From Terriglobia bacterium (GTDB lineage: Bacteria; Acidobacteriota; Terriglobia; Acidiferrales; UBA7541): DNA of 64,000 bases. Shown here one piece after another: positions 691 to 16,190 of this stretch. The notes under the pieces were generated by a model. That model was not told where the DNA came from. It saw nothing but the letters and a program-made list of their open reading frames with translations, and did no database searches. Each line of letters opens with the position of its first letter. Positions within the stretch are counted from its first letter, which is position 1. Made by a program: the position numbers and the translations under genes. The DNA lies in assembly GCA_020073705.1 (NCBI GenBank), contig JAIQES010000001.1, positions 1 to 64,000 of the forward strand. Direction: 5' to 3'.

Positions 691-1239
691 CTCAATGCTA
701 GTTCTACGACCTTGAGTTTTGGCAGTGTGGCCGTGTCCAGCAGCAGCACTCAGAGCGTAACGCTCACCAACGCCGGAAATTCCAACGCCACCATTTCGAA
801 TGTCAGCATTTCCGGTGCAGGCTTCAATGCAAGCGGGGTGTCCACCGGCCTTATTCTGACTCCCGGACAGACGGCAGCTTTGAGTGTGACCTTTGCCCCG
901 GCAGCGACCGGGAGCGTAACAGGCAGCGTCACGGTGACCAGCAACGCCACGAATTCACCCCTCACCATCGCACTTTCAGGCACCGGCGCAACGCAGGTTA
1001 CACATTCCGCGGCCTTGTCCTGGGCTGCCGACACTTCTGTTGTGGTGGGTTACAACAGCTACTCGAGCACCGTATCAGGCGGCCCTTACGTGAAGCTGAA
1101 TTCGACTCTAATTCCAACAACGATCTACACCGACACGACGGTCCAGTCCGGAAAGACCTACTATTACGTAGTGACTGCGGTGGATTCGAATAACTTTGAA
1201 AGCACGTTTTCCAACCAGACGTCTGCCACAATCCCCTAG
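1..1239 (+). CDS. Ig-repeat surface/secreted protein, C-terminal part (partial)
   Basis: The frame is open from the first base, so the start lies outside the window. About 412 residues are visible. The first half is made of Ig-like modules of 86 residues, each with a YQWKKNGTAISGATS-type strand followed by an FTVTVTNSAGN strand. From about residue 225 the sequence changes to a choice-of-anchor-D (ASPM/SPD-2/Hydin-like) domain, and the last ~75 residues resemble a fibronectin type III module (ALSWAADTS, YYYVVTAVDSNN). Thr, Ser and Ala dominate and there is no Cys, as expected for an extracellular adhesin-like or matrix protein. No catalytic domain is visible here. The N-terminal function, and any signal peptide, cannot be judged. 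The next gene is convergent, with a hairpin between them. Confidence 0.85.
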   Translation, partial: YQWKKNGTAISGATSTSYTTPATTSSDNGAQFTVTVTNSAGNVTSSAATLTVNVAPSITTQPASRTVTAGQTATFTVAATGTAPLTYQWKKNGTAISGATSTYYTTQATISSDNGAQFTVTVTNSAGNVTSSAATLTVNVAPSITTQPASQTVIAGQTATFMVGATGTAPLAYQWQKNGTAISGATSSTYTTPATTASDNTTQFTVVVTNSAGSATSNAATLTVNASSTLLNASSTTLSFGSVAVSSSSTQSVTLTNAGNSNATISNVSISGAGFNASGVSTGLILTPGQTAALSVTFAPAATGSVTGSVTVTSNATNSPLTIALSGTGATQVTHSAALSWAADTSVVVGYNSYSSTVSGGPYVKLNSTLIPTTIYTDTTVQSGKTYYYVVTAVDSNNFESTFSNQTSATIP

Positions 1240-1259
1240 TCGCAGGCCCAATTCCCATG

Positions 1260-1310
1260 TTGGAGCCGCGCTTTCTTGGGCGGCTCCAACAACACGGGCG
1301 TTTTTGCCCC
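1260..1310. terminator. Intergenic hairpin between convergent genes
   Basis: TTGGAGCCGC (1260-1269) pairs perfectly with GCGGCTCCAA (1280-1289) across a 10-nt loop. A second small stem, GGGCGTTTTTGCCC, follows at about 1298-1311. The site lies between the Ig-repeat gene (+) and the MFS gene (-) and would suit a two-way terminator. The T-run sits in the second stem's loop, so the match to a classic rho-independent terminator is imperfect. Confidence 0.5.
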
Positions 1311-1459
1311 ATTCCCGTGTCGACATCTGCTACGTAATACTTCCGGCTACTCCGTTTCCAATCCACAGGTCCTGATGTTGGTGGACATTCTTGCCGTCCT
1401 TGGGATTGGCGTGGACTTTCCGGGCTGTTCGAGTGGAAATCAGCCGTGAAAACATCGCA

Positions 1460-2668
1460 TTATGGCTCGCGCAAGCGCAGGATGAGGATGGTGGCTGCCG
1501 CGAAGAGAATACCGGCTGCCGTAAATGCGGCCGACGGAGACGCTGCGGTCCACAGCGCGCCGATCACGACACTCGAGGTGAAGTCGCCGACAGCGTTGAC
1601 TGCGGCGAGCGTGCCATATGCCATGCCATGCTGTGTGGCCGGTACGATTTCGGCCGTGATGGAATCCTCGAGTGCCTCCTCGACGCCGGTGAAAATCCCC
1701 GCCAGAGCAAACACGATCATGAGCACAGCGAGCTGTGACTGGTTCGTCGCGAGCAGCAGCGCCATCCCGAGAGCAACGGCGTAGCCACCCGCCAGAACGA
1801 ACTTTCTTCGAGGGGCTTGGTCGCCGAGCCATCCTCCCACGTAGGCGAATCCTGCGTAAAAAATATTTCGCAGCAGATACAGTCCTATCGCGGTACTCGC
1901 CGCCATTGCGGCGCCCAACCCTGGCGTGAGCTTCTGCGTCGCATACAGGATCAACAAGGTGTGTGAGAAATCGCCGAGGCCGAACACGCCCACGGCCACC
2001 AGGAACAACCGGAACTCTCGGGGCAGGTCGCGCAGACCGGCAACGAACGTCTTCTTTGCACGTATGCCGGTGCGCCGCTCGCGCACGAGCAAGCCAAAAC
2101 ATGTAGCGGCGGCAAAGCCGGGCACGAGCGTCCAGAGCAATACATGCCGGTAGTTATGCGAGGTCACCAGCAACAGCCACAGGGCCGTCAGGGGCGCGAC
2201 AACGGCGCCGATGGTATCCATCATGCGCTCGAAGCCGAACGCCCGGCCATACGCCTCCGGCGGCACCGCGGCAGCGAGCAGCGCCTTTCGGGCGGGCGTT
2301 CGAACACCACGCGCAAGCCAAGCAGTTGAACGGGCCAGCAAAACATGGATTGCAGTTCCGGCAAACCCGATCGCACCCGTCGCCGCCGCCGTGATGGCAT
2401 ATGCCGTCACGACTAATGGCTTCCGGCTTCGCAACCGGTCGGTGAAATGGCCTGCAACGAGTTTCGTGATGCTCGATAGGCCGTCCGCGACACCTTCAAT
2501 CACGCCGAGCCAGCCAGGGCCTGCTCCCAGTGACATCAGGAGCGCGGGCAGGATGGCCGTCGCAATTTCATGACTCCAGTCGCTGAGCAGACTCGTCAGC
2601 CCGACGCCAAGCGTCGTTCGGTTGAGCCAATGGGTTGGTGCGACTCTTTCCTGGTCGTTCGTCGGCAT
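1460..2668 (-). CDS. MFS transporter
   Basis: A major-facilitator permease of about 402 residues with roughly twelve hydrophobic segments. The N-terminal half has the typical loop after TM2 (DGLSSITKLVAGHFTDRLRSRK), matching the MFS GxxxDRxGRR-type loop. This indicates proton- or gradient-driven efflux or uptake of a small solute across the inner membrane. The substrate cannot be read from sequence. The ATG at 2668 is preferred, giving MPTNDQERVAP; a GTG nine codons upstream (2695) is also possible, and neither has a good Shine-Dalgarno sequence. It is transcribed toward the Ig-repeat gene and stands alone. Several long open frames opposite it are shadows. Confidence 0.85.
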   Translation of the reverse strand: MPTNDQERVAPTHWLNRTTLGVGLTSLLSDWSHEIATAILPALLMSLGAGPGWLGVIEGVADGLSSITKLVAGHFTDRLRSRKPLVVTAYAITAAATGAIGFAGTAIHVLLARSTAWLARGVRTPARKALLAAAVPPEAYGRAFGFERMMDTIGAVVAPLTALWLLLVTSHNYRHVLLWTLVPGFAAATCFGLLVRERRTGIRAKKTFVAGLRDLPREFRLFLVAVGVFGLGDFSHTLLILYATQKLTPGLGAAMAASTAIGLYLLRNIFYAGFAYVGGWLGDQAPRRKFVLAGGYAVALGMALLLATNQSQLAVLMIVFALAGIFTGVEEALEDSITAEIVPATQHGMAYGTLAAVNAVGDFTSSVVIGALWTAASPSAAFTAAGILFAAATILILRLREP

Positions 2669-2795
2669 GGGGAAAATGAAACCACAGATAGACACAGATG
2701 AAAACAGATAAAAAGCAAGAATTGATGCGCCCTGTTTACAGAAGGACTGCTCTTACGATTCCTATTCGTTCCTCTGTGGCCGAATCCCGCTTGGT

Positions 2796-2895
2796 TCAGT
2801 AATGGGAGTGGTAACGCAGCTCGACGAACATTTCCCGTGGATTATTGAAGTGGAATCCGCCAAACGTCAGGCTGTCGTCCAGCATCGCGCGGCTC
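2796..2895 (-). pseudogene. TonB-dependent receptor C-terminal remnant
   Basis: Read on the minus strand, this stretch encodes MLDDSLTFGGFHFNNPRE followed by MFVELRYHSHY and a stop. That is nearly the same as the last ~30 residues of the intact TonB receptor downstream (MLDNSATFGGFHFSNPRE, then IFAELRYRFHY, stop at 3973). Upstream of about 2895 the similarity ends and the frame has no recognisable receptor sequence. It is therefore a truncated tail of a second receptor gene, left beyond the SCO gene. It may mark a deleted paralogue or an aborted tandem duplication. The remaining ~95 bases up to the SCO stop and the ~100 bases toward the MFS gene show nothing further. Confidence 0.8.
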
Positions 2896-2990
2896 CAACA
2901 TCGCAATTTTCTTCCGCCCATTTCCACGTCAATCACCGCTGAGTGTAGCTTCTTCATCTCCACCCGTTCCCAGCCGATTCAAGAACGGTG

Positions 2991-3869
2991 CTAGTTGCTC
3001 AATGTCGAAATGTGGCGCATGACGTCGAGGACTTCGGAGGTCTTCCAGTTGTTATAGGGCCATATATGAGCTATGGCGCCGTTGGGAGCGAGCAAGATCG
3101 TAAGCATGTCGTGCGATATCTGGCCGTCTTGTTCAGAATAATCGAGACCAAAACTGGCGACGAGTTTTTGCAAGTCCGCAGGAGTTGTGGAAACGAAATC
3201 CCAGTGTTGGAAACCCTTGGGATCATGCTCCATGTTGGACAGCCCGTACTCCCGCATGACTGGCGGTTTGTCGTAATTCGGATCCAAACTAATGCTTATC
3301 AAGTGTGTTCTTTTATAGTCGTCGGGATTTTTCGCCAGCTCTTTTTGGATGATGGCGAATTGTCTGGTAAGCAGCGGACAATAATCGGGAAAGGGACAGC
3401 GCGTGTAAATGAACGTAAGAAGAACGGCCTTCCCTTTGAACTGGCCGAAACGGATAGTTTTGCCATCCTGATTGACGAGCGGGACATCGGGGGCCATGTC
3501 GCCAATCCCGAGGACAGGGGGGGCTACGCTTTCGGCATTTGATCTAGCGGCGCCTTTGCCGGTAACGACCAGGTGTTCCAGCCAAAATTTGCCTGCCGGT
3601 CCCACAATTAAATCTGCCCGAATGATGTCTGCCGGCTGGACCCGTTCAAACCCGTAGGGATCTTTCACCGCATAAGGCATCGTCATCGCGGGCATAAATC
3701 CGGGGATGTCGTCACTGTCGATGATGAGTTGCTGGGTGGCAGGTTGCTTGCTAATGACGCGTCCCTTCAAGACGTAGGTAGTCCGTGAATTGTGGCAACT
3801 TGCCAGGAGCAAGGAGACAAACGTTATGAAGGCGAATCCGGCAAAGCCGGATTTGATTCGTCTCGTCAT
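2991..3869 (-). CDS. SCO1/SenC-family copper protein with CusF-like N-terminal domain (lipoprotein)
   Basis: 292 residues. A lipoprotein signal ends at Cys25 (LLAS-C), so the mature protein is probably membrane-anchored and periplasmic. Residues ~30-105 resemble the CusF-type copper-binding domain (PGFMPAMTMPY at 56-66, with its Met-rich ligand set). Residues ~120-290 are a thioredoxin-fold SCO domain with TRCPFPDYCP and the conserved His in ISHDMLT (His253). SCO proteins deliver copper to cytochrome oxidase or act as thiol redox factors. Here the Cys pair (158, 164) is spaced CX5C rather than the classic CX3C. The start at 3869 is chosen because GGGAG lies 8 nt upstream and the signal peptide begins there; longer frames are artefacts. 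It lies 103 bp after the TonB receptor, probably in the same transcript. Confidence 0.88.
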   Translation of the reverse strand: MTRRIKSGFAGFAFITFVSLLLASCHNSRTTYVLKGRVISKQPATQQLIIDSDDIPGFMPAMTMPYAVKDPYGFERVQPADIIRADLIVGPAGKFWLEHLVVTGKGAARSNAESVAPPVLGIGDMAPDVPLVNQDGKTIRFGQFKGKAVLLTFIYTRCPFPDYCPLLTRQFAIIQKELAKNPDDYKRTHLISISLDPNYDKPPVMREYGLSNMEHDPKGFQHWDFVSTTPADLQKLVASFGLDYSEQDGQISHDMLTILLAPNGAIAHIWPYNNWKTSEVLDVMRHISTLSN

Positions 3870-13598: not shown

Positions 13599-13715
13599 TC
13601 ACAGCGCAGCTAGGAGTGCGACGACCGCAATCGCAAAGCAAAGCGTCCCCCATCCGCGATGCTTTGTGATGCAAAGCACAATGCCCGCCAAGGTGAACAC
13701 CGTGAATAGCATCAT
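13599..13715 (-). CDS. Possible coupled 38-residue membrane peptide
   Basis: On the minus strand the stop of the zinc-ribbon protein overlaps the start of this frame (TAATG, sharing base 13715). It encodes MMLFTVFTLAGIVLCI, a short KHRGWG turn, and a second hydrophobic stretch (TLCFAIAVVALLAAL), then a stop, which is a two-helix hairpin. An in-frame ATG at 13724 is an alternative start. The overlap suggests translational coupling, and the composition is membrane-like from end to end. Its small size means chance cannot be excluded. Confidence 0.35.
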   Translation of the reverse strand: MMLFTVFTLAGIVLCITKHRGWGTLCFAIAVVALLAAL

Positions 13716-14395
13716 TACTTGCATCCCTTGGCTTTCCAATGGTCGCCGAAGTCGGACAGACGCCGCTCTATCGCCGATTGTTCGCTGGTGACTTCATCGA
13801 TTTTAGCGCTGATTTCTGGCGTAGCCGTTTCGGCGCGCTCCATCAACAAGTAGAACGAAGTGAAAAGCCGCGTGTACTGCAACATAAGAGGTGCCGCTTC
13901 ATGCATCGCTAGACCTTCGCAGGGATCATTGACATCTACGTGGGCATCGGATTCGACCTTGACTCGTCGCTGGAATTTTTCGTTTTGAGCCACAAGGTCG
14001 TCCAAATATGGTTTTCGTGTGAGCAACTCTTGGCGAATTGCCACCCAGCCTTCGCCTTTCAGGTCGGCGTTTAATTTTTCAATGTCGTTGTTCCACTTGC
14101 CCACAACGTAGGAGGCGTCGCCCTCGCTCGTAATCTCGCCACTGTGGATTGCGGCATTGATCTTTGGTGCGTGCTTCTCAAAAAAGTCAACATTCGCGTC
14201 GACGACGGCATATAGAGCCCCAACCAAAATCAAAATCGACCAGATGGCAAACCTCGGATAGTGGCGCATCCAAGAGAAGAAAGAAGAAAACCAAGAAAAG
14301 AACTTTTGCCGAAAGGGTTTTTCGCTATCAGCGCCACAAGCTGTGCAAATGCGGCCTGACAGAATTGAACCGCAACTAGGGCACGTGAGTTGCAT
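13715..14395 (-). CDS. Zinc-ribbon, single-pass membrane protein with coiled-coil region
   Basis: 226 residues. The N-terminal zinc ribbon reads MQLTCPSCGSILSGRICTAC. An aromatic-rich stretch (RQKFFSWFSSFFSWMRHYPR) leads into one membrane helix (FAIWSILILVGALYAVVDA), followed by a ~150-residue hydrophilic, mostly helical domain with Cys near the end. No known family is recognised. The ATG at 14395 has AGAGGG just upstream; the longer TTG frame to 14485 lacks support. Its G+C is lower than that of the surrounding housekeeping genes. It lies just outside the inverted repeat flanking the serine protease gene, so the two could share an origin. Confidence 0.65.
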   Translation of the reverse strand: MQLTCPSCGSILSGRICTACGADSEKPFRQKFFSWFSSFFSWMRHYPRFAIWSILILVGALYAVVDANVDFFEKHAPKINAAIHSGEITSEGDASYVVGKWNNDIEKLNADLKGEGWVAIRQELLTRKPYLDDLVAQNEKFQRRVKVESDAHVDVNDPCEGLAMHEAAPLMLQYTRLFTSFYLLMERAETATPEISAKIDEVTSEQSAIERRLSDFGDHWKAKGCK

Positions 14396-14493
14396 TCGAC
14401 CCTCTTTCCCGCTGCGGGGGGACCAAAGAGGCAGAATAAACGTCAGCGAAGCATAACTCGTGAACACCGAAAAGGTCAATCTCAAGCGCGTCG

Positions 14494-14515
14494 GGGTAGT
14501 GGGCTACTTTGAAAT
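14494..14515. repeat. Left arm of 22-bp perfect inverted repeat
   Basis: The arm contains GTAGTGGGCTACTTTGAAAT and matches the reverse complement of 15653-15674 over 22 bases without mismatch. About 27 bases inward, a partial copy of the core appears (GTGGGAAACT against GTGGGCTACT). That recalls the multiple terminal repeats seen at the ends of some insertion sequences. Confidence 0.85.
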
Positions 14516-14640
14516 GCGTCGGCTCGGTGGGAAACTGAGGGATAGGGAATTAGCGAGCGTAGGAACGGATCAGACTTTCCCGCTGGCTGGGCGTCAGTGA
14601 ACGTACCTCGGCAAGGAACTGCCTTATATCAAAGGCAGGT

Positions 14641-15612
14641 TTATCGTGCGGCGACAATCGCGGGCTGCGGCGCTGGCCGCTGTTTTCTTTTGGCCGTAGG
14701 CTTGGCAATTGGTTTTCTTGGTGGCACTTTGGCGAAGCCATAGACTGATTCTCCTAGTGGTATGATGCTCTGCAATGCTGTAAGTAGCAAGGTTTCTTGT
14801 CCCACGTCTAACGGGTGAACTGGTAGTCCAAGTGTTCGCGCTTCGATGCGATCAATCGCAAAACTATGCGATGGGTAGTTCGATAGGAGAGCCTCCACAA
14901 TCTGTTCTTGATGAGGGTTCTTGGTCAACGCAAGCAGCCTATTTGCGTATTGTTCTCCAATGGCCAAGGCCCTCTTATACTCCCCGATCTCCAATGGGTC
15001 AACTTGCTCATAAAGAGGACGCATGAGCGCAGTCGTGAAACCTACAGATTCATGTAAGGCCTCTTTTACACTCATGCCTGAGCGCCGAATTACCATCAAG
15101 GCGAAGAAATCCAAGACTTCCAGTGCATAATCTCGAAGGAACTCCGCAGACTTGAACTCATCCAGAGGGGAAATGCTCTTTGCGCCCTTTTCGAGAGGGT
15201 CTTGAATCTGAACATCTATCGGGCCGAGATCAGCAAACTCACCCATATAGATTCCGTCAGCACCTAAACACATCAGCGTCCCCGCGCTCTTGGCCATCAG
15301 TGGAACAATTACATTGAACTTTCGGCAATGCCGTCGAAAAACTCGCACGACCTGATAGGCAATATCCGCATCCCCCCCTGGTGAGTGTAGGAGCAACTCC
15401 AAGGTGTCGATATTTTTTAGTTTGTCGCGCTCTGCAAGCACTGAATGGAACGTCGGCCCACAGATATGGTCGTCCCTGTCTCCACAGTGAATCACAGTGA
15501 AGATTCTAGATTTTCTCTTGGCCTCAAGCCTTGAGATGACCTTCCAAAAGGATTGCAGTCGGTTTGTTCTCTCGTCAGCCAACAGAGACTCCGTACGGGG
15601 GACAGAATACAT
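14641..15612 (-). CDS. ClpP/SppA-fold serine protease (serine dehydrogenase proteinase-like)
   Basis: 323 residues. The core has the ClpP/crotonase fold: LLLHSPGGDADIAYQVVRVF with the oxyanion-type SPGG at 77-80, then PLMAKSAGTLMCLGADGIYM with the probable nucleophile Ser109. This is the pattern of the SDH_sah family (PF01972), soluble relatives of signal-peptide peptidase. No signal peptide or membrane helix is evident, so it is probably cytoplasmic. The C-terminus is Lys/Pro-rich. The ATG at 15612 has no Shine-Dalgarno sequence. Codon use is more AT-rich than in the groEL or dcw genes, suggesting recent arrival. It is the only gene within the 22-bp inverted repeats. Substrate unknown. Confidence 0.75.
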   Translation of the reverse strand: MYSVPRTESLLADERTNRLQSFWKVISRLEAKRKSRIFTVIHCGDRDDHICGPTFHSVLAERDKLKNIDTLELLLHSPGGDADIAYQVVRVFRRHCRKFNVIVPLMAKSAGTLMCLGADGIYMGEFADLGPIDVQIQDPLEKGAKSISPLDEFKSAEFLRDYALEVLDFFALMVIRRSGMSVKEALHESVGFTTALMRPLYEQVDPLEIGEYKRALAIGEQYANRLLALTKNPHQEQIVEALLSNYPSHSFAIDRIEARTLGLPVHPLDVGQETLLLTALQSIIPLGESVYGFAKVPPRKPIAKPTAKRKQRPAPQPAIVAAR

Positions 15613-15652
15613 CAGTCGACATCAAAATCAAATGAGGATCGTGCTTCGATCT

Positions 15653-15674
15653 ATTTCAAAGTAGCCCACTACCC
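15653..15674. repeat. Right arm of 22-bp perfect inverted repeat
   Basis: Exact reverse complement of 14494-14515. It lies 41 bp upstream of the protease start codon, so it could also affect that gene's promoter. Confidence 0.85.
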
Positions 15675-15761
15675 GCGCCGGGATAATCACTCCAAAGCTC
15701 CCCGCAATTTGTATAAGGCAATCGCATAATTGCATAAATTACAGGCTCAACTGGTTTAATC

Positions 15762-16190
15762 CTATGCTTTGGATTTCTTCGGTGTTTTTCGCCCGCCTTC
15801 AAATGTGAACGCATCAAACGAAATCACGCCGGCGCCCGTCGTTGCCAGCGCCAGCGCAGCTGCGCCCAATATAAGCGGGAGCTCGTATTGCCCAAAAGCG
15901 TAAATTCCGACCACCGGGATTCTTGTTCGGCCCAGCACCAGCCCCATTTCAATCGCTAGGAGCAATCCGGCGCCGCGCGTGAACAAACCGAGGACCAGCA
16001 GACCTCCGCCAAACAGCTCGAGGATTCCGAAGATGTATGCGAAGTAGCTGGGAAAACCGAATCCCGAGAAGGCCTTGAGCCAGTGTGCAGGGTCGGCCAA
16101 TTTCGGATATCCCTGAAACATGAAGGCAATGCCGACCGCCAGACGCAACACAAGGAGCCCCAGCGGCTTCAAATTCTCGAGAAATCGCAT
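15762..16190 (-). CDS. DoxX-family membrane protein
   Basis: 142 residues, four membrane segments, with the DoxX signature VLRLAVGIAFMFQGYPKLAD near the N-terminus and FGILELFGGGLLVLGLFTR in the second helix. DoxX-like proteins are inner-membrane proteins linked to thiosulfate:quinone oxidoreductase or to redox homeostasis; the exact role here is unknown. The start at 16190 is supported by GGGGGA about nine bases upstream; a longer frame from 16226 has none. The tail is basic (GGRKTPKKSKA). It is downstream of the groEL terminator and probably separately transcribed. Confidence 0.85.
   Translation of the reverse strand: MRFLENLKPLGLLVLRLAVGIAFMFQGYPKLADPAHWLKAFSGFGFPSYFAYIFGILELFGGGLLVLGLFTRGAGLLLAIEMGLVLGRTRIPVVGIYAFGQYELPLILGAAALALATTGAGVISFDAFTFEGGRKTPKKSKA

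Follow-up and report, generated by a model that had tools for sequence, protein, structure and literature searches.

We identified a mobile element within a 64,000-nucleotide stretch of DNA from a Terriglobia bacterium (contig JAIQES010000001.1, assembly GCA_020073705.1; hereafter the window), in which a perfect inverted repeat frames a single gene for an SDH-type serine protease of the ClpP fold. The repeat constitutes the two ends of a transposable element. This element is very probably a non-autonomous mobile insertion cassette that belongs to a family of IS1-related transposons widespread in the Acidobacteriota. We observed the ends themselves, a flanking target duplication, a family of related elements, the recurrence of proteases as cargo, and a phasing of the targets relative to promoter sequences. 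We lean, with reserve, towards a scenario in which this family is guided to its landing sites, 15 bp upstream of a -35 box and with single-base precision, by promoter-bound RNA polymerase or by the -35/-10 architecture itself, and thereby spreads single-gene proteases and defence-like genes to promoter-proximal positions, leaving the promoter of the neighbouring gene unbroken.

A repeat search of the window recovered two arms of 22 nt (14494-14515 and 15653-15674), which are 100% complementary and 1137 nt apart, with the protease open reading frame (ORF) as the sole substantial gene between them, in agreement with an earlier reading of this DNA made without database searches (the sequence-only reading). 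Comparison with other copies set the boundaries of the element at 14495-15673 (GGTAGTGGG...CCCACTACC), the outermost base of each arm being part of a flanking 8-bp target duplication. The two copies of this duplication (CGCGTCGG and CGCGCCGG) are identical at 7 of 8 positions, and an equal or better match would arise by chance with a probability of approximately 0.0004 (25/65536). The element is poorer in GC than the window (50.3% versus 59.4%), and the protease gene has a GC content at third codon positions of 0.52, versus 0.65-0.80 in the RDD, DoxX, PDH and GroEL genes, bearing out the AT-richer codon use that had been noted previously. Neither a transposase nor any fragment of one was detected inside the window copy, as the sequence-only reading had correctly stated.

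We found the 20-mer core of the arm in 14 GTDB genome stretches, almost all of them from Acidobacteriota, and an 18-mer (GTAGTGGGCTACTTTGAA) in 25 of the 399 genomes of the class. Since the core of the arm recurs elsewhere, while a reversed control gave zero matches, a chance origin of the arms is excluded. The 18-mer matches lie at unrelated loci, many of them forming pairs in inverted orientation, separated by 38 bp to 3.5 kb, that enclose unrelated DNA, and exact 8-bp direct duplications stand directly outside GGTAGTG...CACTACC in L006, L008, L018, L046, L048, L055 and others (L numbers denote loci). In total there were 34 candidate insertions, 32 of them with an exact 8-bp duplication. The aligned ends of these 34 insertions, whose duplications are exact or nearly so, give GGTAGTGnnnnAnTTTGAA, with A12 and TTT14-16 invariant, positions 1-7, 13 and 14-17 being partly fixed by the search pattern; a GGTA[G/C]TG start, itself part of that pattern, is present in 68 of 68 paired ends, alongside the 8-bp duplications. 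If the repeats instead served site-specific recombination, or the regulation of a native gene that they surround, the perfect arms and the single gene between them would be accounted for, but elsewhere the same ends enclose 38 bp to 4.4 kb of unrelated DNA, full copies also hold a DDE transposase, and the 8-bp duplications of varied sequence refute this explanation, which we consider extremely improbable. The sequence-only reading had named in advance two outcomes that would count against it, an arm occurring widely with no gene between its copies, and related genomes always having the protease at this locus without the repeats; the arm proved to be widespread, but with genes between its copies, and in relatives the presence of the protease at the locus is not fixed.

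Full relatives of approximately 1.9-4.4 kb comprise GGTAGTGnnnnAnTTTGA ends, one DDE transposase of approximately 270-300 aa, at least one cargo gene and 8-bp duplications, and complete copies nearly always carry the cargo next to the transposase. The autonomous relative at L048 (element 1023-3288) encodes a 294-aa transposase and is flanked by an exact duplication, CGAATTCC; the 18-mer ends of the window cassette are also found on the transposase-bearing elements of L048, L055 and L086. Family transposases are present in 124 of the 399 genomes. Those of L048 and L049 match the Pfam domain DDE_Tnp_IS1 (PF03400) above its cut-off, with a weaker match to an IS240/IS6 domain in L048, and the best NCBIfam match of the relatives' transposases is to IS1 (transpos_IS1, 51 and 67 bits, 2.7e-18; cut-off 100). 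Because the latter falls below the cut-off, we describe the family, as judged from sequence, only as IS1-related, and not as a proven member of IS1. It resembles the IS1 family in its GGnnnTG ends, in a DDE transposase with a PF03400 match, and in 8-bp duplications, IS1 elements having target duplications of 8-10 bp. It differs in its single longer transposase ORF, its score under the NCBIfam threshold, inverted repeats that are unlike those of IS1 beyond the first bases, its cargo genes and its promoter-phased targets. An affiliation with IS21-like elements, with IstA-IstB and multiple terminal repeats, was rejected, the transposases of the relatives being IS1-like and the family ends having no second repeat. 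The proposal that a degenerate second copy of the core represents such multiple terminal repeats was not supported, as only 6 of 68 ends have a GTGGG at positions 19-60.

Deletion derivatives are common in this family, with transposase fragments retained in L015 and L008. In L006 (4469-4506) we additionally noted a 38-bp element, flanked by an exact 8-bp duplication, that consists of two abutting inverted ends alone. In the autonomous elements of L048 and L086, a small ORF (1072-1365 and 3415-3741, respectively) bearing the basic motif GRKGGKIGG...AARARW is situated immediately inside one of the ends.

The insertions of this family are phased relative to promoter-like sequences. Of 132 distinct ends, 19 have the motif GTCAA outside the element at precisely -20 to -16, versus 0.09 at the average other offset. 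In an independent class-wide search for GTCAA near an end, with any gap of 3-33 bases allowed, the gap was exactly 15 bp in 94 of the 150 matches listed and 16 in 11, with approximately 1.5 at each other gap. Read outwards, GTCAA is TTGAC, a -35 box, placed 7 bp past the 8-bp duplication. Of 30 motif sites, 17 have TAnnnT after a spacer of 17 or 18 bp, and TAnnnT is in excess at these spacers in ends without an exact TTGAC too (11 of 97, versus 1 to 2 at most other spacings). These patterns indicate that elements of the family insert upstream of predicted outward-facing sigma70-type promoters, at a constant 15 bp from the -35 box. The window insertion obeys this rule (CCGACGCG CTTGAGA TTGACC-17-TTATGC, reading into a zinc-ribbon ORF with its ATG at 14395), as do those of L158 and L061. 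A promoter consensus scan of 14380-15780 found this target promoter as the only promoter-like site, scoring its -10 box in the adjacent register, as TATGCT after a spacer of 18 bp.

Guidance is a better explanation for this phasing than selection against harmful insertions, because selection could enrich intergenic sites yet not fix the distance to the base. A further alternative is that GTCAA reflects a sequence preference of the transposase itself, with no involvement of RNA polymerase or promoters. A TTGAC-like TTTGA is indeed found in the inner ends, at +14 to +18, approximately the mirror distance of GTCAA outside; a sequence-only model, however, does not predict the -10-like TAnnnT at its promoter spacing, or its excess in ends without the exact motif, and we regard this alternative as tenable but doubtful. 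Under the guidance that we prefer, a transposase made in trans would bind both ends and insert the cassette with an 8-bp stagger, the insertion being steered to the fixed point upstream of the -35 box. The simplest forms of steering would be contact with the promoter-bound RNA polymerase holoenzyme, or recognition by the transposase of TTGAC at that spacing. An insertion there would leave the core promoter of the neighbour intact. In the window copy, everything except the ClpP-fold SDH-type protease and the two ends is missing.

The window protease matches Pfam PF01972 (1.7e-17, 63.8 bits, cut-off 31.3), and its HSPGGD, AKSAGTL and LGPID motifs are retained in an alignment with relatives. It shares with the SDH-type ClpP-like serine proteinases (PF01972; Clp_like_SDH) the conserved Ser motif, the GPID motif and the ClpP/NfeD-like domain. 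It differs in that its score against NCBIfam Clp_like_SDH (1.4e-22, 80.4 bits) is far below the equivalog cut-off of 250, and in that no solved structure was matched by sequence. Its sequence had no match in PADLOC and no relative on viral contigs. The protease probably serves as a selectable passenger with an intracellular role, in defence or stress proteolysis, this being the weakest step of our explanation.

Homologues of the SDH-type protease were identified in 57 of the 399 class genomes, and at least nine of approximately 60 protease loci, the window included, lie in or against elements of this family. Protease and transposase share one element in L086 (with both ends and a near-duplication of 9 bp, one base of it mismatched), L158 (exact duplication CAATGATT), L161 (duplication 7/8) and L060, and occur together across L067 and L061, two contig ends that share AGAGCGAC. 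The protease adjoins a transposase in L159 and L160, whereas L091 has a protease locus with one end, and L170 one degenerate end. At least six protease-transposase neighbours were seen, versus approximately 0.05 expected under random placement, a figure that uses an estimated transposase count of 210. In a tree of 50 proteases, the element-borne sequences require at least seven label changes, suggesting that SDH-type proteases were captured several times independently, or lost their ends repeatedly.

Within this tree, the window and L158 proteases are sisters (support 99/96), and the L158 element has the same layout, with the right end followed by the protease pointing inwards, in the same orientation relative to that end, and then the transposase. 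Because of this sister relationship and shared layout, the window copy appears to derive from an L158-like element, with the transposase missing. It is quite possible, if somewhat short of an even prospect, that this derivative is a decayed autonomous protease-carrying IS1-like transposon, left by internal deletion and never moved in trans. The L158 layout and sister protease, the many deletion derivatives of the family (L015, L008, L006) and the lack of a surviving transposase in the bacterium's own genome are in keeping with such decay, but the two 21-bp ends remain identical to each other and the protease has an intact ORF, fitting recent movement, and no transposase fragment was detected in the window copy. 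The sequence-only reading had proposed a passenger cassette, possibly mobilised in trans. The cassette itself stands, with transposon ends, a target duplication and no transposase; mobilisation in trans would be its natural reading, because relatives with the same ends carry a transposase and similar proteases.

Several observations weigh against a mobile cassette of this family. The target duplication of the window has one mismatch, and the transposase is assigned to IS1 under the curated NCBI threshold, with an IS6-type domain also weakly matched. A transposase search of the own genome gave only a 50-residue C-terminal match (contig C48) and no intact matching transposase, which makes current mobility doubtful. 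Finally, a base-exact empty site could not be read in the same-genus genomes, in which the zinc-ribbon region is absent too.

Mobile insertion cassettes (mics) have two inverted repeats, no transposase and a target duplication (PMC3913671). The type case, MIC231A1 of Bacillus cereus, contains the peptidase (endopeptidase) gene adp, and the IS231A transposase mobilises this cassette in trans (PMC3913671). As predicted from its sequence, the window element has all three structural marks of a mic, namely inverted repeats that match insertion sequence (IS) ends, the lack of a transposase and the duplication, and it likewise carries a peptidase gene. It differs in having ends related to IS1, not to IS231 (IS4), in the ClpP-fold SDH-type protease as cargo, and in its promoter-phased target. 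Transporter ISs (tISs) are IS derivatives with passenger genes beside the transposase (PMC9330008), a description that fits the full relatives L048, L055, L086 and L158, but not the window copy, which has lost its transposase.

In a literature search we found no description of IS1-like tISs or passengers in Acidobacteriota, or of promoter-phased targeting, which is weak evidence of absence. As far as the literature searched shows, the IS1-related family, its recurrent protease cargo and its promoter-phased targets are apparently new. An odd repeat around one gene becomes a mobile family defined by its ends, transposase, cargo and target rule. Targeting at a single-base distance from the -35 box would, if true, parallel in bacteria the behaviour of retrotransposons that track RNA polymerase III.

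We investigated the other cargo of the family by Pfam searches of 65 cargo ORFs from 30-odd elements. Proteasome-like Ntn hydrolase subunits were the commonest class (L209, L213, L216, L218, L221 and L230), four of the six matches being above threshold and two weak. DNA methyltransferases and P63C came next, with single occurrences of TIR, PemK, SocA/Panacea, Fic, Bro-N, AAA_21 and trypsin-like proteins; the flanking ORFs used as controls were mostly housekeeping. Capture of peptidases of both the ClpP and the proteasome fold, repeatedly and independently, raises the question of how a free-standing protease benefits the element or host. The element at L049 (1139-4648) encodes a DNA methyltransferase, an adjoining 180-aa ORF without a Pfam match and a HARE-HTH protein, and is possibly a mobile restriction-modification unit. 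Cargo ORFs matched 231 PADLOC families, versus 48 for control ORFs. Because one methyltransferase alone matches many families, and controls match some, a defence or proteolysis theme of the cargo is suggested but not proven.

Table 1. Positions in the window of the cassette, its gene, the flanking duplication and the predicted target promoter.
Feature	Position	Strand	Remarks
Whole element, very probably a non-autonomous mobile insertion cassette	14495..15673	.	1179 bp; bounded by inverted ends and a target duplication; other genomes have these ends with exact duplications
Left terminal inverted repeat, GGTAGTGGGCTACTTTGAAAT	14495..14515	+	21 bp
Right terminal inverted repeat, GGTAGTGGGCTACTTTGAAAT (read on - strand)	15653..15673	-	
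Left copy of 8-bp target duplication, CGCGTCGG	14487..14494	.	8-bp duplications are the family rule
Right copy of 8-bp target duplication, CGCGCCGG	15674..15681	.	7/8 identical to left copy
Cargo gene, 323-aa SDH-type ClpP-fold serine protease, intact	14641..15612	-	PF01972; motifs HSPGGD, AKSAGTL, LGPID
Predicted -35 box of target promoter, TTGACC	14474..14479	-	15 bp outside left edge of element; exact position rule
Predicted -10 box, TTATGC, 17-bp spacer, reading into zinc-ribbon ORF	14451..14456	-	
Zinc-ribbon ORF	13715..14395	-	226 aa from ATG 14395; downstream of target promoter; outside element

The zinc-ribbon ORF sits between the RDD gene and the element. It had been suggested to belong to the same acquired block as the protease, but lies outside the target duplication, the element having landed upstream of its promoter. 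No homologue of this ORF was found in 88 family genomes, and it is absent between RDD and DoxX in the same-genus genomes; it is lineage-specific, and may represent a second, independent arrival. The RDD and DoxX genes, which flank this region in the window, are adjacent in four genomes of the same genus, with neither an insert nor a protease.

Within its own genome, the 16-mer core of the arm occurs as this pair alone. We additionally identified two solo ends of related elements there, on contigs C32 (45521-45538) and C42 (23075-23092) of genome G000, with neither a partner end nor a transposase found for either. The C42 end has TTGAC at the promoter-phased distance.
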